The notes under the pieces are model-generated. The model worked only from the letters and a program-made list of their open reading frames with translations. It did no database searches and had not been told where the DNA came from. A DNA stretch of 38,970 nt from NCBI GenBank assembly GCA_004293265.1, contig RDXZ01000028.1, positions 1-38,970 of the forward strand. The letters run 5' to 3'. Source of the stretch: Bacteroidota bacterium. Its GTDB lineage: Bacteria; Bacteroidota; Bacteroidia; Cytophagales; Microscillaceae. This document shows positions 151 to 33,109 of the stretch, piece by piece. Position numbers and translations under genes: made by a program. The first letter of the stretch is position 1; every line of letters starts with the position of its first letter.

Positions 151-3100
151 TTAATTGATTTTGATGATTTTTTCAGCTACCATATTTTTACCATTTGAAA
201 TTTTAATGATATAATTTCCTTGTGATAAATGTGATAAATCGAATGAAAGTTTTTGATAACTTGTATTTCCTGTATTTTTTGTATCTGTAAATACATTTTT
301 TCCTTGCATATCCACAATAGAAATTTGATAGTTTTGATTTTCAGCCATATCAAATTCAACGTTAATATTTTCTTGGAATGGATTAGGATATACATTTTTG
401 ATTTGTATTTTATCCAACTTTTCAACATTAACCGCTATTATTTGTGAATATTTGAAAGAGTTATCATTGTCAATAATTTTCAAACGATAATAAGTAACAG
501 GACTAAATGGTTGATAATCAATCAATTCATAATTTTTTATTTGATTCATTCCACCTTTTGGCTCTAATGCGGTAAGGGTTTGAAAATCAAGTGCATTATT
601 ACTTTTTTCTATCTCAAAAGTCTTTGTATTGATTTCGTTCCAAGTTTTCCAATTCAAGGTCGTGGTTTGATTTTGATTTGATTTTCCTTCAAAACTCAAC
701 AAATCAGTAGGTAAAGGATTTCCAATATTTGAAATAGAACCAAAAGCCCAAGGACTAAAATTACTTTGTTGCGTATTTGTATAAATACTACCTTTTAAAA
801 TTGTGCCTGTAATAGTTGTCGGATTTCCGCCACGATTTTCCCAGCCTGTTCCATTCCAACGAGCTACTTTTAAATCATCATTAATAATTTCGTTGATACC
901 TGAATAAATATTATCCTCCCAAAATATCTCAACTTGCGCCGTAGTAGTTCCCCCCAAATTTCTATCTAATTGCCAATATTCTCTCGTACTCACACGCACC
1001 AATACAGGCGTAGGAGAAGAAGCAAAAGCATAATTTCCCCAACCATTTGCAAAATATTCCGCTGTAAAAAAGTCATTGTTAGTAATGGCTGATAAATTTC
1101 TGATAGCAATTCTTGCCCATTTTGTACCTTTGCCCGAAGGAAAAGTAAACGTCATACCTGCTTCTGTAGTAGCAAGTATTTTTCGCATCGGACCTACTAC
1201 ATAAGAATTATCATTGCCCGCTGATGCCATTGCACCCGCATTGGCTATCAAAAGATTAGTGGCTGTTGTATTTAATAATCCTTTTGTCATCGTCAAAAGT
1301 CCATTATAATTTGTTGCAACACTCAAATTCAAATTTCCTGTGGTCTTATTTAAAGTAAGATGATGCAAAGTTGGGCTTGTTGTTCCTGAAATATTTGAGT
1401 TGGTAGTTCCTACAAAAATTAGTGTTGAGTTAGTTTGAGCCACAACATTATTATTATTTATAAAATTCCCACTTAAATTTGTCAAACTACTTGTATTGAG
1501 TTGTAATCCTGCTTGATTAGTCAGATTTCCACTCAAATTTAAAGTATTTTGTAGTTGTCCTGTAGCCCCTGAAGTTTTATTGACTACCAAATTGACCAAA
1601 TTATTTACAAGTGTTGTTCCCGATGTAATTGTATTGGTAGCACCTGAAAAAGTTACCACAGAGCCTGTATTTGCTGTAAGAATATTATTATTAACCAAAT
1701 CTCCCCTCAAAAAAAACGAGCGAGTTGCTGTAGCATGTGTACCTAAATTGACTGTTCCATTGATTGTCAAACTTCCTGCAATGGTTGGAAAACGCAAATC
1801 ATTCGCAGTGTTTAAAGTAACATCAACAGGAACAATTACATTGTTTACAAAGGTAGCCGAAGCATTCCAATTCAAAATAGTATTCGCAGGTTTGATACTC
1901 AAATCCAAACTTTGTGTAGTTGTCCAAGCAGTTGCGCTTCCTTCTAAATTTGAGTTCAAATTCTGTGTAGCATTTCCATAAGGTCGCAAAGTACCTGCTC
2001 CTACCATTACATTAGAAGAATTATGTACTAAATCAGCTTGAAATCTAATCAAACCAATGTTATTAATATTACTTGTTCCAGAGTTAGTAATTGTTCCTGT
2101 GGCATTATAATTACCTGCCGCTTGATTGTTAAAAACTGATGTAGCCGACATAGCAGTCGTCCCTGTTACATTCACATTGACACTATTGGTAAAAGTTCCT
2201 GCACTATGTGCCAAATTTCTACCCACATTCATTGTTCCCGCAGTTGTATTAACCGCAGTTGCACTTGTACTACTATTAGTAAAATCTCTTGTAATATTCC
2301 AAACACTTGTATTGGTAATTTGGGCGGTGCTACTGTTGATAACATCATTAAAATTATTCCAAGTACCATTGTTAATGATTTGTGCGCTATTATTATTGAT
2401 AATATCCCCAGCAGTAGAAGGGCTTATGCCTGTTGTCCAATTTCCATTGTTGGTAATTAAAGCACCTCTTGCATTCGTAACACTTGCTATATTTGTAATC
2501 GTACCCGCATTTGTAATGAAACATGTGTTATTATCACTACCTTGTGTTCCATTGGTAATATTGTTTGCTAACATAGTTCCTGTCAAAGAATTTACAATGC
2601 TACTATTCCATTGATTGACAATATTTCTGTCATTCATAGTCGAACCAGTTGTTTGGATAAGTGTTGTAATATCAGTATAATTATATGTTCCTACATTCAA
2701 TACTGCATTATTAACAATAGATGCTTTTGGAGTGAGTGCATTGGTGCTACCATTGATAAGTCCATTATTTGAATTAGTCGAAGTGCGTGTTGCGACTAAC
2801 ATAGTTCCGTTATTAATCACAGCACCTTGTTCGTTATTAGAGAATGTATTGTCAGTTAAAAACCTACCTCCCGCATCTATAGTAATAGTACCCGAATTAC
2901 GTGTTTCTCCTACGGAAATTCCTGTTCCTGTACCTTGATTGGTTTGAGAATCTATTGTATTTGTTACACTTGCCGTACCTGCTGACCTTCTTTCCCTTAC
3001 TGCCAAAGTTGCTCCATTTCTTATCCTCAATGTAGGCAATGTATTAGCAATTGCTAAGTCGGTTGGTAAAAGAAAACGAGCCAAAGTTAAACTTCTGATA

Positions 3101-6100
3101 GCAGGCGGCATAGCATTCGAAGCAGCAGGTACAGAATTTCCTGCTCCTCTGTTATAAACTACGACCGCAGGAGAAGGATTAACCACATCAGGATTACTAA
3201 CATCTTTCACATTGGCAGGGTCTAAATCAGGATAACTTGGGCAATCTCCTAAAATAACTACATTGCTTCTAATCGTAGGAACTCTTGCTGGCGACCAGTT
3301 ATTTTTATTCATCCAAGATGTTCTTTCCTGCATAGTCCCTGTACTACTTCCTACCCAAGAAACAATCTGCCAATCAGGATTATCTTCAAAACTACCAATA
3401 CAAAAAAATTCATATAGTTCAGGAATAGGATTATTTAATAAACTATTAAATTGATAACCAGATGATATGGTTGAGGTGATTGTGCCTCGTGTATTCTTTG
3501 CTCCCGTAGTAGCCGCTAACGCAGTTACACCACCAGACACTTGATTTAAAGAGCTTGCTTCCCAACCAAGCTCTGTAAAAGGTGGTGTACCAAGACCAAA
3601 ATCAACTTGGAATCTTGCTATACCTAATCTGGTAATATCTGTTGAGGAAGATAAAGGTCCATTTAATCCACTTATTGAACCATTGTTAGTAGCTATTCCA
3701 TCTGTACTTGTATCGTTCCAATACAATGTAATAGCTACATAAGCATTACCGCCTAATTGTTGTATTCTCCAATATTCTCTATCGCTCACACTTGAAAATG
3801 TAGGAGTTCCAGGTACCATATCAGAATCAAAATCGTTTGTTCCAAAGTATTCTCCCCAATAACTACCTGCACTTGCAGGACTTGAAGTTGCTTTATTTAA
3901 CCTCATTCTGCCTATTCTATTATTTTTACCAATAGGAAATACTACTCCTGCTGTTATTTCTACTGCTGATGCATTTCTCTGCAAAAGTCCATCAATATAA
4001 CTATTATTAGAATTACCTCCTGTGTAGGTACAACCTGAAAACATAATCGTTCGCGTTTGTGCATTGTTAATAGCAGAATTGGCTGAGGAATTAGAGGTCA
4101 TTCTTCCCATCAACAAATCTACATTATTTGTAATGGTAATTATTTTTGAAGCAGCTAACGTGATTCCTACAGGTTGATTAGTACCCGTTGGAGGAACTGT
4201 ATTCATAATAAGATTATAAAAATTAGTCGCAAATGCCGTAGGAGTAGCAATAGGAACAGCCACTTGTGATGTTCCTGTAATGGTTACTTGGGCAGAACCT
4301 ATAAAAGCAACCGTTGAAGTCTTGGGAGTAAAAGTGCCATTATCAGTAATAGTAGCGGTTGTGTTATTGGCATAAGTAATTTGATTGTTTGTGCCTGCAT
4401 TGAGAATAAAAAAAGTATTAATATCAATCGTCAAATTTCCATACATTGTGATTGGCTTCATTATCGTCAATACTTTTGTATTTGTGCTTACTTGTATATT
4501 TGAAAATAACAAACCTGTAGTGATATTAACTCCCCCGCTAGTGCTTGTACCTGTGCCATCAATCGTAACATTTGTATTAGCAAAAGAAACATTAGAAAAT
4601 ACAAAAGAGAAAGTTCTGTTAGTTGCGACAACATTATTAAAAGCACCATTTTGTAAAAAACTACCTGTTAAACCAAAAGAAGTTGTGCCTTGATTATGAT
4701 TAATAATGCCTGTTGTTGTATTGGTAAAATTTCCACCATTTAATACATTAAAATTAGTAGTTCCAGCATTGACATTCAAAGTAATTGTATTATTGTTAAT
4801 AATATTGTTTGAAATATTAACAGTGGCAGTTCCCGTATTGGTTGTATTAAAAATTCCATTATTTGTAACCGCATTTGTAATATTCAACGTCATACTTGTT
4901 GCAATGTTCAAAGTAATCGTAGCAGGAATTACAAAAGGATTATTATTGATAGTAACCTGAGCCGTTGTACCTATTGATAAAGTTGTGTTCGTTGGTTTGT
5001 TTGTAATATTCAAAATATTAAAAGTGGTATTCGAAGAACCAAATATATTTTGCGTTAAATTCCCTTCAAAACTTACCGTACTTGGAACATTTGCCGTAAA
5101 AGTCGCATTGTTAGTAAAGTCCTTCAACAAAGTCATTACATTATTAGCAGTTGCTGTAAAAGTTCCTGCGCTATTGACAAAATTACCACTCACATTAATA
5201 GCCCCAATGCCTGTGGTAAATGTACCTCCATTAGATAAACTATTACTCACGTTAATAGTTGTATTATTGCCTGTAAAAGTTCCATTATTGGCAAAATCAT
5301 TACCTACATTCAAAGTCAAACCTGTGGTCATCAATAAAGTTGCTCCACTATTCACAGTCAAATTATTAGTAATTGTCCTTGATATATCCATTGTAACAGA
5401 CGCAGAAGCCGTTTTCGCAATCGTTAAATTATAAAATTGAACTGCACTCACATTCGTTCCTGTTACTAAAACTGTTGTGTTGGTTGTTCCTATATATCGC
5501 AAAGTACTTCCTACATTAGCAGAAAAAGACATTGTATTATTGATAATATTGCCTGTAAAACTTACCGTACTTACATTTCCTATAAAAATACCATTGTTGG
5601 TAAAATTACCTACCATCGACAAACTCCCACTCGAAAATACTGACAAAGTAACGCCTGCAGGAATAGTCATTGCATTGGTAATATTTACATTACAAGCATT
5701 GATATTCCAAGTTGATGCTGATTTTGAAAAATTTAAAGTCCCTAAATTAGCCGTTCCACTTCCTGAAAATGTCTGTGTATTTGTACCTATCAAAGCAGTC
5801 GTTCCATTATTGGTAATTGTTCCATTACAAATCACATCATTGGTAGGCGTAAAAGTTTGCCCTGTAGCAATCACAGTAGTTGCACCACTCGCATTGGTAA
5901 AAATTCCTGACACATTCAAATTCCCATTGGAAGTAAAAGTTCCGCCATTGTTATTTAATGTTGTGATATTAGAAACATTCGCAACGGTCAAAACATTTGT
6001 GTTGGTCAAATTAGTTGTGGTCAAACTGCTATTCACATTCATCGTTCCGCCGTTTATAATCGTAGGAATATTCAATGCAATCGCAGTAGTCATCGTTCCG

Positions 6101-6579
6101 TTATTAGTCAAAGAAGTGATAACACTAAAAACAGCCCCTGTATTTACGTTCAAAGTCCCGCCTGCATTGACTAAAAGCGTTGAGTTAGCAGTCAAAGTTC
6201 CATTATTTGTGAAAGTCCCTGTAATACCAAGTTCGTTTGTGATAGTAAGTGTTCCATTGTTTACAATTGTGCCTAAAACATCAGCAGTATTTGTAATGGT
6301 TAAAGTTGCTCCTGCATCTATCGTCAGGGTTGCTCCAACGTTTATCGTCAGGCTTGTAATTGTAATATTGCTTGCGGTAGGAATAGTAGGTTGTTGTGCT
6401 ACATTCGTAATGGTTACATTACTTGCGGCAGTTGGAAGTGCATTTGGACTCCAATTTGTAGCAGTGTTCCAATCTGTTGTTCCTGCGGCAACGTTCCAAG
6501 TTTGTGCTTTTAATTGTATCAATGAAAAAAGACAAATAAAAGATAAAAAAAGGTTTTTCTTTAAAAATAATAAGCTCAT
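151..6579 (-). CDS. Giant secreted adhesin-like protein with T9SS type A sorting domain
   Basis: About 2142 residues from the chosen start. The frame stays open 24 codons further upstream (to 6651), but the Met at 6579 begins a clean Sec signal peptide (MSLLFLKK, hydrophobic core, cleavage near LKAQ), so that start is preferred. After a first module containing TDWNTATNWSP come long Asn/Thr/Ile-rich strands full of NNGT and FTNNGTL repeats, which suggest a beta-helix. A module with FPIGK and REYW follows near residues 880-1000. A second NWSP module (near 1080), a second repeat tract and a second FPSGK/REYW module (near 1810-1930) repeat the plan. The end has LPTDLLSFEGK (near 1960) and a sorting domain with YPNPF and a final EKIIKIN. 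Family knowledge says such proteins are exported across the outer membrane by the T9SS and anchored or released. An adhesin role is inferred from the architecture; no enzymatic domain was recognised. Confidence 0.85.
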   Translation of the reverse strand: MSLLFLKKNLFLSFICLFSLIQLKAQTWNVAAGTTDWNTATNWSPNALPTAASNVTITNVAQQPTIPTASNITITSLTINVGATLTIDAGATLTITNTADVLGTIVNNGTLTITNELGITGTFTNNGTLTANSTLLVNAGGTLNVNTGAVFSVITSLTNNGTMTTAIALNIPTIINGGTMNVNSSLTTTNLTNTNVLTVANVSNITTLNNNGGTFTSNGNLNVSGIFTNASGATTVIATGQTFTPTNDVICNGTITNNGTTALIGTNTQTFSGSGTANLGTLNFSKSASTWNINACNVNITNAMTIPAGVTLSVFSSGSLSMVGNFTNNGIFIGNVSTVSFTGNIINNTMSFSANVGSTLRYIGTTNTTVLVTGTNVSAVQFYNLTIAKTASASVTMDISRTITNNLTVNSGATLLMTTGLTLNVGNDFANNGTFTGNNTTINVSNSLSNGGTFTTGIGAINVSGNFVNSAGTFTATANNVMTLLKDFTNNATFTANVPSTVSFEGNLTQNIFGSSNTTFNILNITNKPTNTTLSIGTTAQVTINNNPFVIPATITLNIATSMTLNITNAVTNNGIFNTTNTGTATVNISNNIINNNTITLNVNAGTTNFNVLNGGNFTNTTTGIINHNQGTTSFGLTGSFLQNGAFNNVVATNRTFSFVFSNVSFANTNVTIDGTGTSTSGGVNITTGLLFSNIQVSTNTKVLTIMKPITMYGNLTIDINTFFILNAGTNNQITYANNTTATITDNGTFTPKTSTVAFIGSAQVTITGTSQVAVPIATPTAFATNFYNLIMNTVPPTGTNQPVGITLAASKIITITNNVDLLMGRMTSNSSANSAINNAQTRTIMFSGCTYTGGNSNNSYIDGLLQRNASAVEITAGVVFPIGKNNRIGRMRLNKATSSPASAGSYWGEYFGTNDFDSDMVPGTPTFSSVSDREYWRIQQLGGNAYVAITLYWNDTSTDGIATNNGSISGLNGPLSSSTDITRLGIARFQVDFGLGTPPFTELGWEASSLNQVSGGVTALAATTGAKNTRGTITSTISSGYQFNSLLNNPIPELYEFFCIGSFEDNPDWQIVSWVGSSTGTMQERTSWMNKNNWSPARVPTIRSNVVILGDCPSYPDLDPANVKDVSNPDVVNPSPAVVVYNRGAGNSVPAASNAMPPAIRSLTLARFLLPTDLAIANTLPTLRIRNGATLAVRERRSAGTASVTNTIDSQTNQGTGTGISVGETRNSGTITIDAGGRFLTDNTFSNNEQGAVINNGTMLVATRTSTNSNNGLINGSTNALTPKASIVNNAVLNVGTYNYTDITTLIQTTGSTMNDRNIVNQWNSSIVNSLTGTMLANNITNGTQGSDNNTCFITNAGTITNIASVTNARGALITNNGNWTTGISPSTAGDIINNNSAQIINNGTWNNFNDVINSSTAQITNTSVWNITRDFTNSSTSATAVNTTAGTMNVGRNLAHSAGTFTNSVNVNVTGTTAMSATSVFNNQAAGNYNATGTITNSGTSNINNIGLIRFQADLVHNSSNVMVGAGTLRPYGNATQNLNSNLEGSATAWTTTQSLDLSIKPANTILNWNASATFVNNVIVPVDVTLNTANDLRFPTIAGSLTINGTVNLGTHATATRSFFLRGDLVNNNILTANTGSVVTFSGATNTITSGTTLVNNLVNLVVNKTSGATGQLQNTLNLSGNLTNQAGLQLNTSSLTNLSGNFINNNNVVAQTNSTLIFVGTTNSNISGTTSPTLHHLTLNKTTGNLNLSVATNYNGLLTMTKGLLNTTATNLLIANAGAMASAGNDNSYVVGPMRKILATTEAGMTFTFPSGKGTKWARIAIRNLSAITNNDFFTAEYFANGWGNYAFASSPTPVLVRVSTREYWQLDRNLGGTTTAQVEIFWEDNIYSGINEIINDDLKVARWNGTGWENRGGNPTTITGTILKGSIYTNTQQSNFSPWAFGSISNIGNPLPTDLLSFEGKSNQNQTTTLNWKTWNEINTKTFEIEKSNNALDFQTLTALEPKGGMNQIKNYELIDYQPFSPVTYYRLKIIDNDNSFKYSQIIAVNVEKLDKIQIKNVYPNPFQENINVEFDMAENQNYQISIVDMQGKNVFTDTKNTGNTSYQKLSFDLSHLSQGNYIIKISNGKNMVAEKIIKIN

Positions 6580-6910
6580 AATTTTTTGCGTTTGTGATAA
6601 AATTATATTAAAAGTTTGCGGGGAGAATGAATTTGTGAAGTAAATAAACATAATACATATAATATAGCTAAAACGATAAAAGGTAACTAATAGTTATCGT
6701 TATTTTCATTTTTTTTCTAATCTATGTAAGAAAAAATGTATAATTAAATCAAAAAAAATATTTTATGTCATTTTCATAAAAAAAGATTAATTTATTTAAC
6801 CAAAAAAATCTTTAAAAGAAATAAAAAATAAGTTTTTTTTGTATTTTTTTTGTATTTTTAAATTATTTTTCTTACTTTTGAAAAATTTTTAAAAAAGACG
6901 TACATTTAAA
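6580..6910. other. Divergent intergenic region between adhesin and htrA
   Basis: About 330 bp, strongly AT-rich. It holds the leader of the adhesin on the minus strand, an 8-bp inverted repeat (AACGATAA near 6672 and TTATCGTT near 6693) and the htrA promoter close to its right end. No convincing ORF was seen. Confidence 0.6.
6849..6880 (+). promoter_or_regulatory. Predicted Bacteroidota-type promoter of htrA
   Basis: TTTG at 6849-6852 and TACTTTTG at 6873-6880 are separated by 20 bp, matching the TTTG / TAnnTTTG consensus used by the Bacteroidota primary sigma factor. It lies 30 bp before the ATG. Confidence 0.65.
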
Positions 6911-19384: not shown

Positions 19385-19415
19385 TTGTTTTTTTGTATAA
19401 TTTTAACTAATTTTG
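19385..19415 (+). promoter_or_regulatory. Predicted recO promoter, which decides the start codon
   Basis: TAATTTTG at 19408-19415 matches TAnnTTTG, with TTG at 19385-19387 exactly 20 bp upstream. An in-frame ATG at 19385 would lie within the promoter, so the ATG at 19430 is the likely start. Confidence 0.55.
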
Positions 19416-19429
19416 CTAAAAAAATATTG

Positions 19430-20134
19430 ATGAAACAAAAAACACAAGGAATTGTCTTAAAATATTTTAAATATGGAGATACTTCGCTAATTATTAGAAT
19501 TTACACTAAAAATTTTGGTTTACAATCTTATTTATTGAACAATGTAAGAAGTCAAAAAAATAAAAATAATAAAATTGCACTTTTTCAACCACTTTCTTTG
19601 TTGGATTTGGTCGTTTATCAAAATAAATCAGACCAAAAACTACACCGTTTAGCAGAGGCAAATATTACTTATCCTTATCAATCTATTCCTTTTGATTTTA
19701 CAAAAACTTCTTTGGTTTGGTTGGTTGTTGAGGTTTTGGATATGTGTTTGAGAGAAGAAAATGAAAACGAAATTTTATTTTATTTTTTATCAAATGCCTT
19801 AGTAGAATTAGACAAAATCGATAGTGAAGTAGCCAATTTCCCAATTTTATTTTTATTACAACTAACTCAATTTTTAGGTTTTTTGCCCAACAATGGACTC
19901 GAAATCATTACCCAAATAGAAGATGTTTTTCAGTCTTATATGCCAGAAGAAACTAAAGAAAAATTATGTAATTATTTTGATTTTTTCTTAGCACAAAATC
20001 AATTTAATCCAATCATTAATATTACTATCACAGAAAGAAGAAAATTATTAGATATTATTTTAGATTTTTATCGTTTGCATATTCCTAATTTTAAAGAAAT
20101 AAAATCTTTGAGTTTGTTACGAGAATTGAATTAA
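19430..20134 (+). CDS. recO: DNA repair protein RecO
   Basis: A 234-residue protein that loads RecA with RecR in the RecFOR gap-repair pathway. The N-terminal OB fold begins MKQKTQGIVLKYFKYGDTSL and includes YTKNFGLQSYLLNNVR and LFQPLSLLDLVVY. The C-terminal helical part has ENEILFYFLSNALVELD and FLLQLTQFLGFLPNN. The zinc-binding Cys of some RecO proteins are missing, as is usual in Bacteroidota. The start at 19430 is preferred over 19385 because of the promoter position and family N-terminus. Its stop codon lies in the left inverted repeat of a MITE-like element shared with the convergent rvt gene. Confidence 0.9.
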   Translation: MKQKTQGIVLKYFKYGDTSLIIRIYTKNFGLQSYLLNNVRSQKNKNNKIALFQPLSLLDLVVYQNKSDQKLHRLAEANITYPYQSIPFDFTKTSLVWLVVEVLDMCLREENENEILFYFLSNALVELDKIDSEVANFPILFLLQLTQFLGFLPNNGLEIITQIEDVFQSYMPEETKEKLCNYFDFFLAQNQFNPIINITITERRKLLDIILDFYRLHIPNFKEIKSLSLLRELN

Positions 20135-20290
20135 TGTGAGTTCGAGGTGCTGATTGAGAAAAGTAAGTAATTTTTCAAAAAACAAGGTTAGACCTTATTT
20201 TTTGAAAAATATTTTAATGAAAAAAATATTTATTTATAAATAATTGAAAATCAATTTATTATAAATAAAAACTACCTCAAACTTACATTA
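20132..20290. mobile_element. MITE-like element, copy A (159 bp)
   Basis: The ends are imperfect inverted repeats: TAATGTGAGTTCGAGGTGCT at 20132-20151 and, read from the other side, TAATGTAAGTTTGAGGTAGT at 20271-20290, with 16 of 20 bases identical. Inside are a hairpin (ATTTTTCAAAAAACAAGGT near 20166-20184 with its near-complement ending near 20207) and a core at about 20230-20270. The core matches copy B (30237-30278) in reverse orientation over about 41 bases with one difference. It has no coding capacity. It supplies the stop codons of recO (TAA, 20132-20134) and of the rvt gene (20288-20290), and its hairpin could end both transcripts. Confidence 0.6.
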
Positions 20291-22681
20291 AAAAGGTAAA
20301 TCATCATGGTTATATCTATTGTGTTTTGTATTTCCATTACCTTCTTCTTGGTTTTTATAAATGGCTTGTAAAGGTATAAGTTCAGTAAGCAAAAATCTAA
20401 ATGTTCCAAATGTTTCTAACAATTCGTGTCCGTATGTATAAAGTAACCATTTCCAATACACACTTAAATTTTGTTGTGTAGAACCTTTGACCTCTCCTCC
20501 TCTACTTACAAAATCTTTCACAAGACTTTCCATTACCACCGTAGAAGTTGGTGGATTTGATTTAAAAATATGTGAATTTATATTGTAATAAAAATACCCC
20601 CAATTATTTTCTATTTCTCTTTCTGTTTTTCCAGTTTCATCAGGAATTTCGGGTAAAACAATATTACTTTGTTGTTTTTTGAATTGGGCAATATCACAAA
20701 TAGGCGAACGTAATGCCAAACCTCCTGCAGTAACAGGAAAGAAAAACCATATTTCGGGCAAGTGCATCACTGCTTGTTTCAGGTGTGGAAAATGTTGTAT
20801 AATTTGTTCTCTTAGATACTCAAAAATACCTTCATTTTTTCCAAAAAGATGAGCAAAAAATGTAGAAACTGTATTATTTACTGCCTCAAAATGTGTTTCG
20901 CCAAAAGGCATACCAGGCGCAAGTCCGCGTATAAAATATTTGATATTCGAATTATAAGCATTGATGATTTGAAAAATATTTTTTTTATCTTTCAATTGTT
21001 CAATCAGAATTTTTTGATGCTCGTTTACTTTTTTTGTTGTAATTTCCCATTTTCCGTTACTATTGAGTGATAAAAACTGCCATTGTGGTAGATTTGAAAA
21101 TTTTGTAAGATAATGTGATGATTGTTCAATATGATTGTTAATAGTTTCAGTATTATTTTTAATTTGAACTGCACCTGTTTTTTCAGGATTTACTTTTAAA
21201 TCACAAATTTTTAAAAACTCATTTGTTTTGTCCCAAATTATTTCTGCAATTTTTTCAGAAGGAGCAAGCAAATAAATATCATCTAATAATCGTAAAATTC
21301 TGCCTCCTTCTTGTGTAATCGCAGGTCTGAGCCATTCAAGCAACACATCAGCCAACACATGTGAAATCGTGCTACTTAAAAAAATACCACGCTTTGGCTT
21401 AATTTTTTGATTGTTTATTGTGTAATTTATCTCAAAATAAGTTCTAAAAAATTCTAACCATTCATTTTTTACACCCAACCATTCTAACATTTCTAATAAA
21501 ACTTCAGGTGAAAGCGTCAAAAAATAATCTTGAATATCAATATGTGTGATAAAAAGTTGTTCTTCCAGATTATTTTTATAACGTGTTTGAAAATAAACGA
21601 CTTCTTTGTGCAAAATACCCAAAATTCTGTCCATACTTGTTTCTTCTTCCACATCTGCATTACTGCTGTAACTTTCACCATTTTGATTGTATTCTACAGA
21701 ATATCTTTCAGGTAACATTTCTAAGAAAAATACATCTTCTTTTTCTCTGTATGTTTTTACATTGATGTTATAATCATAAGGTTTTATTTCAAAAATATGG
21801 TTTTGTATCAAATTTTTAAGATAGATTCCCCATTTCACTCCCAAAATTTCTAAAAATAATGTATCGAGTAAATTAGTTTGGTGAAAAGGTCGCCATTTTT
21901 TATGTGTCCAAATGCTTTTTACGGAACCATCTTTATTTTTCCATTGCCAATCCTTCAGATTATGTAGCATAATGGTCAAAGTTCCCACAATTTCGGTAAT
22001 CATAGCAGTGTCTCCTACTATTTGTTTTGCTTCTTTTTTAATATTTCTGTGTTGATACTGATGACTTATAATTGCCTTCAAGTGATTTTCTACTTCTTTA
22101 TTGGTAATAGGTGAAAAAAGTGGAGAAGCAAAACCATCTACATATTTAAAATCTGTTCGCAAAAAAGCATCTATGCCTTTCTCAATATTTTTAGGGTGAA
22201 TTGTGTATTTATCAAACCAATCTATTAATTTTACTATATCAGGGTTCGATTCTGTTTGCCAAATTGTAAGCCAATTTTGTTGTGCTTTTTCTTGACTTGC
22301 GGAGATTTCTTTTTCAAAAGATACAAATGTAGATTCTTCTAACAAAAGTCCAAACAAAAGTCCTGCCTCCAATCGTTGTTTTCCTTGTGAAATTTCTTTT
22401 TGTAAACGATTTACCCAATATTGCAAAAAACTATCGGAAGCAATTCCTGCATCTATTTTTGCCCAAACTACATCGAGATTATCTACTTCGGGATGAATTT
22501 TATGTTGTCCAAAACTAAGTGTAGAAAGTTCTTTGTATAATATTTTGAGTTTTTCACTCAAAGAAGAAACTTGTTTAATTTGTTCCTCCAAATTTTGATA
22601 ATGCGTATTAAGCCTTTGATAGTGTTTATTAAGTTCGTTCAACTTAATGCGTGAGATTGCTTGAAAACTTGAGTTTTTCAT
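20288..22681 (-). CDS. rvt: RVT-family reverse-transcriptase-related protein (bacterial rvt)
   Basis: A 797-residue protein. A coiled-coil-rich N-terminus (about 10-55) and a helical domain (60-300) precede the RT core. Motif A is HIDIQDYF with Asp382. The motif B region is KPKRGIFLSSTISHVLADVL (428-447). Motif C is RLLDDIYLL with Asp467-Asp468, so both metal-binding sites look intact. The region after motif C has LKVNPEKTGAVQI (495-507). The C-terminal part has a WQFLSLNSNGKWEI stretch (534-547), NAYNSNIKYFIRG, GMPFGETHFEAV and FFFPVTAGGLALRSP (646-660). These C-terminal features and the KRG...SHxLxDV / LxDD form match, from memory, the rvt cellular genes of fungi and a few bacteria. There is no maturase X domain or HNH endonuclease, and no retron or DGR parts nearby. 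It is convergent with recO; chrA follows upstream on the same strand. Family call is good; function is unknown. Confidence 0.75.
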   Translation of the reverse strand: MKNSSFQAISRIKLNELNKHYQRLNTHYQNLEEQIKQVSSLSEKLKILYKELSTLSFGQHKIHPEVDNLDVVWAKIDAGIASDSFLQYWVNRLQKEISQGKQRLEAGLLFGLLLEESTFVSFEKEISASQEKAQQNWLTIWQTESNPDIVKLIDWFDKYTIHPKNIEKGIDAFLRTDFKYVDGFASPLFSPITNKEVENHLKAIISHQYQHRNIKKEAKQIVGDTAMITEIVGTLTIMLHNLKDWQWKNKDGSVKSIWTHKKWRPFHQTNLLDTLFLEILGVKWGIYLKNLIQNHIFEIKPYDYNINVKTYREKEDVFFLEMLPERYSVEYNQNGESYSSNADVEEETSMDRILGILHKEVVYFQTRYKNNLEEQLFITHIDIQDYFLTLSPEVLLEMLEWLGVKNEWLEFFRTYFEINYTINNQKIKPKRGIFLSSTISHVLADVLLEWLRPAITQEGGRILRLLDDIYLLAPSEKIAEIIWDKTNEFLKICDLKVNPEKTGAVQIKNNTETINNHIEQSSHYLTKFSNLPQWQFLSLNSNGKWEITTKKVNEHQKILIEQLKDKKNIFQIINAYNSNIKYFIRGLAPGMPFGETHFEAVNNTVSTFFAHLFGKNEGIFEYLREQIIQHFPHLKQAVMHLPEIWFFFPVTAGGLALRSPICDIAQFKKQQSNIVLPEIPDETGKTEREIENNWGYFYYNINSHIFKSNPPTSTVVMESLVKDFVSRGGEVKGSTQQNLSVYWKWLLYTYGHELLETFGTFRFLLTELIPLQAIYKNQEEGNGNTKHNRYNHDDLPF

Positions 22682-22962: not shown

Positions 22963-24132
22963 TTAAAAAAATCCACTCAATAAAGCACCTAAAATCAATA
23001 AAGGAATTGGTATTTTGGTAAATTGTAACACTAAAAAAGTAACTAATGTTATCAAAATATATAAATAATTATCAATAATTGGCAACAACAATAAAAACGC
23101 ACCGCCTATCGCCAAACCTGATGCACTTGCATTGATACCCTCCAAAGAAGCTTTGACTGCTCTAATTTTTTTTAACTCGTCCCAAAAACGTATCACAAAA
23201 AAAATAATAAATGTACCGGGCAAAAAAACTCCTGCACACGCCATTATCGCCCCAAAAATTTGTCCAAAAATAGTATATTCTCGCATAGATAACACACCTA
23301 TAAATGCCACAAATGAAAAAACAGGTCCAGGAATAAATTGAGAAAGTCCAAAACCTGACAAAAATTCTTGTTCTGATAAATATTTTTTGACTTGCACAAA
23401 TTCTGTCAATAACACTGGAATCAACACTTGCCCACCACCATAAATAAAACTACCATTTCGATAAAAATTTTCAAACAAACGAATAGGCAACGCGCCTGTA
23501 ATATACCCCAAAATTGCGGCAAAAATCAAAACACTCCAAAATAAAAAGAAATTTGCCCACTGAATTTTTATCCTTTTTTCGTGATGCTTTTCTTGTTTTT
23601 TAAACTTTAAAGACGTTACCAAACCACCACCCACTACCACCAAAGGAAAAACCCAAGGAGAACGAAAAAATATAGAACAAAGCGTCGAAAAAATAACTAA
23701 AAAAATACCCGTTTTGGTATTCACTACTTTTGTGGTCAGGTTCAAAGCCGAATAACAAACCAAACCAATCATCACAGGTTGCACAAATCGCATAAATTCA
23801 AGAGAAATTTTCATCTCATCAAAATATACAAACAACAAACCAATCAAAGTCATCAAAAAACAACCGGGAAAACTCCAAACTAACAAAGTAAGATAAGCCA
23901 ATTTTGCACCTCCCAAACGAAAGCCCAAAGAAGTAACGATTTGGGTAGAAGTCGGTCCTGGTAAAATTTGACATAAAGCAATCAAATCTAAAAAATCTTT
24001 TTCGTTAATATAAGCTCTTTTTTCGACCAAAATACGCAAAAACATAGTAATATGTGCCTGTGGACCTCCCCAAGCCGTCATCGATAGTTGCCAAATATCT
24101 CTCAAAAAAATAATATATCTTAATTTTTTCAA
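22963..24132 (-). CDS. chrA: ChrA-family (CHR) transporter
   Basis: A 389-residue membrane protein with two homologous CHR domains, each of about five to six helices. The first half shows WGGPQAHITMFLR and PGPTSTQIVTSLGFRLGG (from residue 58). The second shows GGGQVLIPVLLTEFV and FIPGPVFSFVAFIG. These are the signatures of long-chain chromate ion transporters. Family members export chromate or related oxyanions, but substrate specificity varies. It lies 39 bp after the EVE-domain gene on the same strand, so they may be co-transcribed. No chrB regulator is present, so chromate resistance is only a possibility. Confidence 0.92.
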   Translation of the reverse strand: MKKLRYIIFLRDIWQLSMTAWGGPQAHITMFLRILVEKRAYINEKDFLDLIALCQILPGPTSTQIVTSLGFRLGGAKLAYLTLLVWSFPGCFLMTLIGLLFVYFDEMKISLEFMRFVQPVMIGLVCYSALNLTTKVVNTKTGIFLVIFSTLCSIFFRSPWVFPLVVVGGGLVTSLKFKKQEKHHEKRIKIQWANFFLFWSVLIFAAILGYITGALPIRLFENFYRNGSFIYGGGQVLIPVLLTEFVQVKKYLSEQEFLSGFGLSQFIPGPVFSFVAFIGVLSMREYTIFGQIFGAIMACAGVFLPGTFIIFFVIRFWDELKKIRAVKASLEGINASASGLAIGGAFLLLLPIIDNYLYILITLVTFLVLQFTKIPIPLLILGALLSGFF

Positions 24133-31396: not shown

Positions 31397-33109
31397 ATGA
31401 AAAAAATACTTTTTTCACTCTTGTTTTCGCTTATGTGTATATGTGTATATGCACAAGAAAAGTTATTAAAAAGCACCGCACTTGCCAATCAAAAAATATA
31501 TACCAATTTAGAAAATGCACTCAAAGAGCCTTTGAAAGTGTATAAGTTGAACTTGAAGTATCAAGAAATTACCTCTTTACCCAAAGAAATTGGAGAATTA
31601 AAAAATTTACAAGAATTTGATTGTAGTTTTAATCAACTTACATCTTTACCTCAAGAAATTGGAGAATTAAAAAATTTAGAATATTTTAATTGTAATGATA
31701 ACAAACTTACATCTTTGCCCAAAGAAATCGGAGAATGGAAAAATTTGCAAAAATTTGATTGTAGTTTTAATCGATTTACTTCTTTACCCAAAGAAATCGG
31801 AGAATGGAACAATCTACAAGAATTTAATTTTAGTTCTAATCAGTTTACTTCCTTACCCAAAGAAATTGGAGAACTGAAAAGTTTAAAAGAATTTAATTTT
31901 AGTTCTAATCGACTTACTTCCTTACCCAAAGAAATCGGAGAACTGAAAAATTTACAAAGGTTTGATTGTAGTTCCAATCAACTTACTTCTTTACCCCAAG
32001 AAATTGGAGAATTTAAAAAATTGGAATACTTAGGTTGTTACGCTAATCAACTCACTTCTTTACCCAAACAAATAGGAGAATTAGAAAATTTGAAAACTTT
32101 TTCTTGTGGTATTAATAAATCATATTTTATAGGAACAAATCAGCTTACTTCTTTACCCAAAGAAATTGGAAAACTAAAGAATTTGAAATATTTTAATTGT
32201 AGTAATAATCAACTTACTTCCTTGCCCCAAGAAATTAGAGAATTAAAAAATTTACAAGAATTTCGCTGTAACGATAACCAACTCACTTCTTTACCCAAAG
32301 AAATTGGAGAATGGAAAAATTTAGAATATTTTGATTGTAATCACAACAAACTTACTTCTTTGCCCAAAGAAATTGGAGGATTGAAAAATTTGAAAGCGTT
32401 TTATTGTCAGAGAAATCAACTTACTTCTTTGCCTCAAGAAATTGAAGAATGGAAAAATTTGAAAATATTTTGGTGCAGCCAAAATCAGTTTACTTCTTTG
32501 CCCAAAGAAATTGGAGAATTAAAAGATTTGCAGTATTTTGATTGTTCTATTAATCAACTTACTTCTCTACCCAAAGAAATTGGAGAACTGAAAAATTTAA
32601 AAACAGTTTTTTGTAATAGAAATAAACTTACCATTTTACCCAAAGAAATTGGAGAACTGAAAAATTTGGAATATTTTAATTGTAGTAACAATAAACTTAC
32701 TTCTCTCCCTAAAAAAATTAAAGAATGGAAACATTTGAAATGGTTTTATTGTAGTGATAATCAACTTACCTCTTTGCCCAAAGAAATGGGAGAATGGAAA
32801 AATCTACAAGAATTTGATTGCGGTGGCAATCAAATTACTTTTTTGCCAAAAAAAGAAATTGGACAATGGAAGAATTTAAAAATATTTGCGTGTAGTAATA
32901 ACCAACTTACTACTCTGCCCCAAGAAATTGGAGAACTCAAAAATTTGCAGGAGTTTGATTGTAGTCATAATAGGCTTACATCTTTACCCCAAGAAATTGG
33001 AGAACTCAAAAATTTGCAAGAGTTTGATTGCAGTAAAAATAATTTTTCTGAGGCAGAAAAATCAAAAATAAAAAAACTGCTTCCAATTAATTGTAAAATA
33101 GGATTTTAA
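31397..33109 (+). CDS. Large secreted leucine-rich-repeat protein (21 repeats)
   Basis: A 570-residue protein with signal peptide (MKKILFSLLFSLMCICVYAQ). A short N-terminal cap is followed by 21 LRRs, almost all of 23 residues with consensus LTSLPKEIGELKNLQEF-DCSxNQ. Repeat 8 has eight extra residues (SYFIGTNQ at its end) and repeat 19 one extra Lys. Most repeats carry Phe and Cys where classic LRRs have Leu (EFDCS instead of xLxLS), so a ladder of Cys lines one side of the solenoid. The C-terminal cap FSEAEKSKIKKLLPINCKIG resembles that of the preceding paralogue. The DNA repeats of 69 bp are very similar, so copy number may vary between strains. Function unknown; surface or periplasmic binding is likely. 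Confidence 0.9.
   Translation: MKKILFSLLFSLMCICVYAQEKLLKSTALANQKIYTNLENALKEPLKVYKLNLKYQEITSLPKEIGELKNLQEFDCSFNQLTSLPQEIGELKNLEYFNCNDNKLTSLPKEIGEWKNLQKFDCSFNRFTSLPKEIGEWNNLQEFNFSSNQFTSLPKEIGELKSLKEFNFSSNRLTSLPKEIGELKNLQRFDCSSNQLTSLPQEIGEFKKLEYLGCYANQLTSLPKQIGELENLKTFSCGINKSYFIGTNQLTSLPKEIGKLKNLKYFNCSNNQLTSLPQEIRELKNLQEFRCNDNQLTSLPKEIGEWKNLEYFDCNHNKLTSLPKEIGGLKNLKAFYCQRNQLTSLPQEIEEWKNLKIFWCSQNQFTSLPKEIGELKDLQYFDCSINQLTSLPKEIGELKNLKTVFCNRNKLTILPKEIGELKNLEYFNCSNNKLTSLPKKIKEWKHLKWFYCSDNQLTSLPKEMGEWKNLQEFDCGGNQITFLPKKEIGQWKNLKIFACSNNQLTTLPQEIGELKNLQEFDCSHNRLTSLPQEIGELKNLQEFDCSKNNFSEAEKSKIKKLLPINCKIGF
31561..33040 (+). repeat. 69-bp coding tandem repeats of the LRR gene
   Basis: Each repeat contains TTACCCAAAGAAATTGGAGA or a close form followed by AAAAATTTA. 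The 21 copies differ mainly by silent and conservative changes, as expected for duplication or gene conversion within the array. Confidence 0.8.

Follow-up and report, generated by a model that had tools for sequence, protein, structure and literature searches.

Reverse transcriptases (RTs) of the rvt group are marked by a conserved C-terminal domain with tyrosines near the C terminus, and in eukaryotes their genes occupy conserved genomic positions. HaRVT of Herpetosiphon reportedly has an N-terminal coiled-coil as well as conserved tyrosines near its C terminus, as Yushenova and Arkhipova are said to have described in 2018. The rvt group, whose biological role is unsettled, is the sole group of RTs that has been reported in bacteria as well as in eukaryotes (PMC5718144). 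An insertion before motif 3, called loop 2a, has been described for its members (PMC5718144). The RVT protein of N. crassa shows terminal transferase activity, and its level rises upon inhibition of translation (PMC3520738). More generally, rvt proteins polymerize without a template and aid bacteria, fungi, and rotifers against stress, intact catalytic residues being required (PMC10680173).

The gene described here was found in a window of 38,970 nucleotides, i.e., the whole stretch of DNA that was analyzed, which represents one entire contig (C250) of a 4.03-Mb Cytophagales genome in 265 contigs with a completeness of 91.6%. As put forward in an initial annotation of this DNA, the window contains an open reading frame (ORF) for a 797-residue protein with an intact RT site (Table 1). 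The ORF starts with ATG, has no internal stop codon, and lies on the minus strand, which the annotation had not specified. The catalytic aspartates D382, D467, and D468 are unchanged in an alignment of five family members, comprising the window protein and four homologues. The gene is an intact, stand-alone, sound new member of UG37, a catalogued but unstudied RT family.

Table 1. Coordinates of the RT gene and associated features in the window
Feature	Position	Strand	Basis
rvt/UG37-type reverse transcriptase gene, complete, 797 aa	20288..22681	-	ORF; RT_UG37 E 2.1e-144; RVT_1 E 1.7e-10
N-terminal coiled-coil segment, residues 13-41	22559..22645	-	Heptad score, predicted helix, weak coiled-coil family matches
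Fingers motif KWRP (residues 262-265) to motif 3 (D382); candidate loop 2a	21536..21898	-	Spacing, alignment
Catalytic Asp382, RT motif 3/A	21536..21538	-	Invariant, five homologues
Catalytic Asp467-Asp468, RT motif 5/C, RLLDDI	21278..21283	-	Invariant, five homologues
FLSLNSNGKWEI, residues 536-547, RT motif 7 position	21041..21076	-	After motif-6 N498-E500-K501; beta hairpin in weak model
C-terminal region beyond motif 7, ~250 residues, predicted helical; holds WFFFPVTAGGLALRSP and YWKWLLYTYG	20288..21040	-	Family-wide conservation
Terminator-like inverted repeat, 19 nt, separating the convergent recO and RT genes	20170..20210	.	Arms 95% complementary

Assignment to UG37 was obtained by scanning the protein with the PADLOC profiles. 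The curated RT_UG37 profile was the top match by far and covered nearly the full length of the protein, with UG26 a distant second (E = 1.3e-12); the homologues likewise matched RT_UG37 over their full length and far ahead of other RT families. RT_UG37 (PDLC03776), which is one of the UG/Abi groups, comprises 778 positions and thus has a length similar to that of the window protein, with a C-terminal region common to both. The window protein differs from the profile by a variable insertion, as residues about 295 to 331 fell outside the match in the genome search. Profiles for group II RTs, retron RTs, and other DRTs aligned mostly with the palm. Pfam RVT_1 aligned with residues 363 to 506 only, and a search of PHROGs yielded a generic RT match only. 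Sequence matches in the PDB were to group II, RT-Cas1, DRT9, R2, and related enzymes and did not extend beyond the palm. No description of the function of a UG37 RT was found in the literature searched.

In an RT tree of 31 real sequences, the five members grouped together as a clade (100/96) with a long branch, adjoining UG19 (96/87); with just 133 palm columns, this deep placement is tentative. UG19 is the nearest other family in this tree and the second-best profile for the Bernardetia homologue. Unlike RT_UG37, however, the RT_UG19 profile is shorter (562 positions), and its match begins at the palm and ends before the YWKWLLYTYG region. The Abi RTs AbiK, AbiA, and Abi-P2 are also nonmobile, and their untemplated, protein-primed DNA synthesis (PMC12632851) offers a model for the chemistry, whereas the Abi families gave no significant profile match to the window protein in the PADLOC scan. 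By profile and tree, the protein falls outside the group II, retron, DGR, and characterized DRT enzymes; the initial annotation had likewise described its quoted blocks as uncharacteristic of group II, retron, DGR, or known defense RTs. Its best profile nevertheless lies within the UG/DRT families, which is literally the outcome that the annotation had equated with a refutation of rvt identity. We think that this equation was wrong: the two names, UG37 and bacterial rvt, probably stand for a single clade.

The domain layout of the protein was examined by alignment and modeling. Approximately 260 residues precede the fingers motif, starting with a probable coiled-coil. The heptad score of residues 13 to 41 was reached by 1 of 200 shuffles of the window protein, a helix was predicted at residues 14 to 37 in the AlphaFold model (pLDDT of 67 to 79 for the block), and weak matches to coiled-coil families were obtained; by this score, the same segment was not significant in the four homologues. 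The distance between R264 of the fingers motif and D382 of motif 3 is 118 residues, and it ranges from 118 to 124 among the five family members, as opposed to mostly 62 to 64 in other Bacteroidia RTs, with three at 74 to 75. As motifs 3 and 5 of the family are separated by the usual 85 residues, some 55 to 60 residues are therefore inserted before motif 3. This surplus, which is also seen relative to most group II and RT-Cas1 enzymes, corresponds in position to loop 2a of rvt (PMC5718144), although the sequence alignment is ambiguous as to its location before or after motif 2.

Beyond motif 7, Y742, Y748, and Y750 in YWKWLLYTYG, together with many other C-terminal columns, are invariant in the five sequences. 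No Pfam or NCBIfam domain was detected in this C-terminal region. The initial annotation had quoted three blocks as characteristic of rvt, all of which are present in the 797-residue protein. Two of them belong to the conserved C-terminal part and are themselves conserved in part (YN and TAGG-AL--P), whereas the third, FLSLNSNGKWEI, corresponds to ordinary RT motif 7 and is not restricted to rvt. The AlphaFold models, built from three sequences, were poor (mean pLDDT of 47 and 46), and the helical prediction for the C-terminal region is one of low confidence. A Foldseek search with the first of these models returned generic RTs only, with LINE-1 on top and TM scores below 0.5. With models of this quality, the insertion before motif 3 and the fold of the conserved C-terminal domain are putative as structural features.

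This architecture fits the published description of rvt (PMC5718144, PMC3520738, PMC10680173), in that the window gene has a candidate insertion before motif 3, is present in a single copy, and belongs to a patchily distributed family. As judged from their descriptions, N. crassa RVT and HaRVT also share with the window protein an intact RT site, extra N- and C-terminal regions, and conserved tyrosines near the C terminus, with a probable coiled-coil in the window protein. For comparisons at the sequence level, we used an unauthenticated fungal rvt-like fragment; it was written out with the window protein in view and serves as a lead only. In the stretch that begins with motif 3 and ends with the C-terminal GG-L-P block, the fragment showed 27 to 30% identity to each of the five members. 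Against RT_UG37 it scored 162 bits, compared with 196 and 225 for the same stretch of the window protein and of a Bernardetia homologue, respectively, and when added to the tree it was nested within the UG37 clade (100/97). When plasmids were searched with the fragment, the matches were confined to RT domains, of group II and other types.

Because of these results with the unauthenticated fragment and of the architectural agreement, we consider it likely that UG37 and bacterial rvt represent the same clade, rvt having been compared by description and through that fragment. The rvt identity proposed initially is thus partly supported and probably correct: the architecture agrees, the best profile is that of RT_UG37, and the link at the sequence level is the unauthenticated fragment. 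More tentatively, UG37 might form one clade with the rvt genes that fungi, plants, and rotifers carry, located within the UG/Abi radiation, with eukaryotic rvt as another domesticated offshoot of bacterial defense RTs, a proposal that could well prove wrong. If they do form one clade, the window gene would represent an accessible bacterial model for eukaryotic rvt. If UG37 is bacterial rvt, a "defense" database entry merges with a puzzle of eukaryotic cell biology into a single question, testable in genetically tractable bacteria, the contrasts being stress survival versus phage resistance and untemplated versus templated synthesis. In other respects, the window gene is a further representative of an already catalogued family.

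We analyzed the distribution of UG37 at E ≤ 1e-30. Of the 291 genomes of the order, 5 carry it, and these represent 3 of 115 genera. Two of the 15 genomes of its own family and 3 of the 11 genomes of the other carrying family harbor it; both other genomes of the genus are without a match, one of them being only 79% complete. In a sample of 395 genomes of the phylum, UG37 was present solely in the genome of the window, and a custom profile run on 395 genomes of the class yielded RT-domain matches and no other full-length match. A search of genome contigs revealed two loci, both in Cytophagales, in records labeled Bernardetia and Cytophagales bacterium. Over their whole length, the four homologues can be aligned with the window protein, at 33 to 45% identity. 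Between the two Bernardetia copies that share a locus, dN/dS was 0.07 to 0.10 with dS of 0.25 to 0.33, indicating that the gene is maintained by purifying selection in these two relatives. As the initial annotation had claimed for such genes, UG37 is present in a single copy in the genome of the window. The same genome contains two more RT genes (L061, G000:C21:16004-16636, and L063, G000:C76:2865-3269), neither of which matches UG37 at E 0.001. One of these other RTs, 462 residues long, contains a YADD motif, and its N terminus is charged and coiled-coil-like; the other is part of a 1101-residue open frame.

The RT gene is convergent with recO (19385-20134, plus strand), and the inverted repeat between them is probably a two-way terminator. 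A chromate transporter gene (22963-24132, minus strand) is located 281 bp upstream on the same strand as the RT gene, and further neighbors code for an EVE-domain protein and a response regulator. The location between recO and chrA had been noted correctly in the initial annotation, but the product of chrA, which was described there as a housekeeping gene, is an accessory transporter, and the gene order recO-RT-chrA is not conserved. The homologue loci are mostly unrelated, apart from two Bernardetia copies at the same locus. The neighbors of the RT gene differ among the genomes G061, G052, and G080/G146, and the surroundings of recO also differ in the sister species. The synteny comparison that had been suggested thus did not reveal a conserved position in related Cytophagales. 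In this respect the window gene differs from eukaryotic rvt genes, for which the trait was reported, so that it is not required of bacteria. Consistent with the initial description, no intron, integrase, or DGR component was found among the neighbors scanned, nor was a mobile-element or defense partner gene.

Patchy occurrence at variable loci suggests horizontal transfer of UG37. Along with the listing of UG37 as a DRT (phage defense) in PADLOC and its proximity in the tree to UG19, likewise a UG family, this observation would fit a defense RT family in its own right, Abi- or DRT-like, that has only the RT fold in common with fungal rvt and mediates abortive infection by protein-primed DNA synthesis. 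We regard this alternative as unlikely, since the neighbors scanned around the UG37 gene included no defense genes or mobile elements, searches of phages, plasmids, and viral contigs gave no UG37 relatives, the domain layout agrees with the rvt description, and the unauthenticated fungal fragment, used as a lead only, nests in UG37.

We favor a bacterial rvt branch. By analogy, this RT_UG37 member is probably a nonmobile, oligomeric, template-independent polymerase involved in a stress or phage response, with its chemistry and role extrapolated. The N-terminal coiled-coil would join the subunits, and the RT palm with D382, D467, and D468 would use Mn2+ or Mg2+ to polymerize nucleotides and would need no dedicated template, as suggested by rvt and Abi enzymes. 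The primer may be the hydroxyl of a protein or a 3′ end that is already there; Y742, Y748, and Y750 are candidate priming residues. The role of the enzyme would be conditional, under translational or antibiotic stress or during phage infection.

A template-independent and probably protein-primed polymerase is favored because of the rvt and Abi literature and because no adjacent conserved RNA was found. Several UG enzymes are known to be templated by a noncoding RNA (PMC12632851, PMC12483538), and an RNA encoded beside the RT gene, in the style of DRT2, DRT9, or DRT10, would imply the same mode here. This is very improbable, as the gaps upstream of the RT genes are just 107 to 281 bp long and unconserved, save for a stretch common to three closely related Bernardetia copies, the downstream gaps are conserved solely in the pair of copies that share a locus, and Rfam gave nothing around the RT gene at gathering scores; comparison of the flanks and Rfam thus revealed no conserved noncoding RNA of the DRT2/9/10 type. 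Least credible is a degenerate or immobilized group II intron-derived RT, as the NCBIfam group_II_RT_mat match to residues 374 to 586 (E = 4e-17) covers only the palm and adjoining region and reaches 62.5 bits versus a curated cutoff of 300, Rfam detected no intron RNA, and the tree sets the UG37 clade apart from RT-Cas1 and group II-like RTs.

Other features of these loci were recorded. Elsewhere in the window, a 2166-residue ORF (151-6651) has a C-terminal secretion sorting tail (Por_Secre_tail) as its sole Pfam match, and positions 31397-33109 code for a 570-residue protein with 16 leucine-rich-repeat matches. The recO gene of a related genome (L046, G061:C225:2142-2864) contains one in-frame TAA within the match, which may reflect read-through at the edge, an assembly error, or a broken gene. 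Upstream of the RT gene, the three Bernardetia copies (L056, L057, and L058) share a block of approximately 60 bp with CACATC(A/T)GTTGAGGTCTGC and, after it, a TAnnTTTG-like promoter element; L057 has this block despite being at a different locus.
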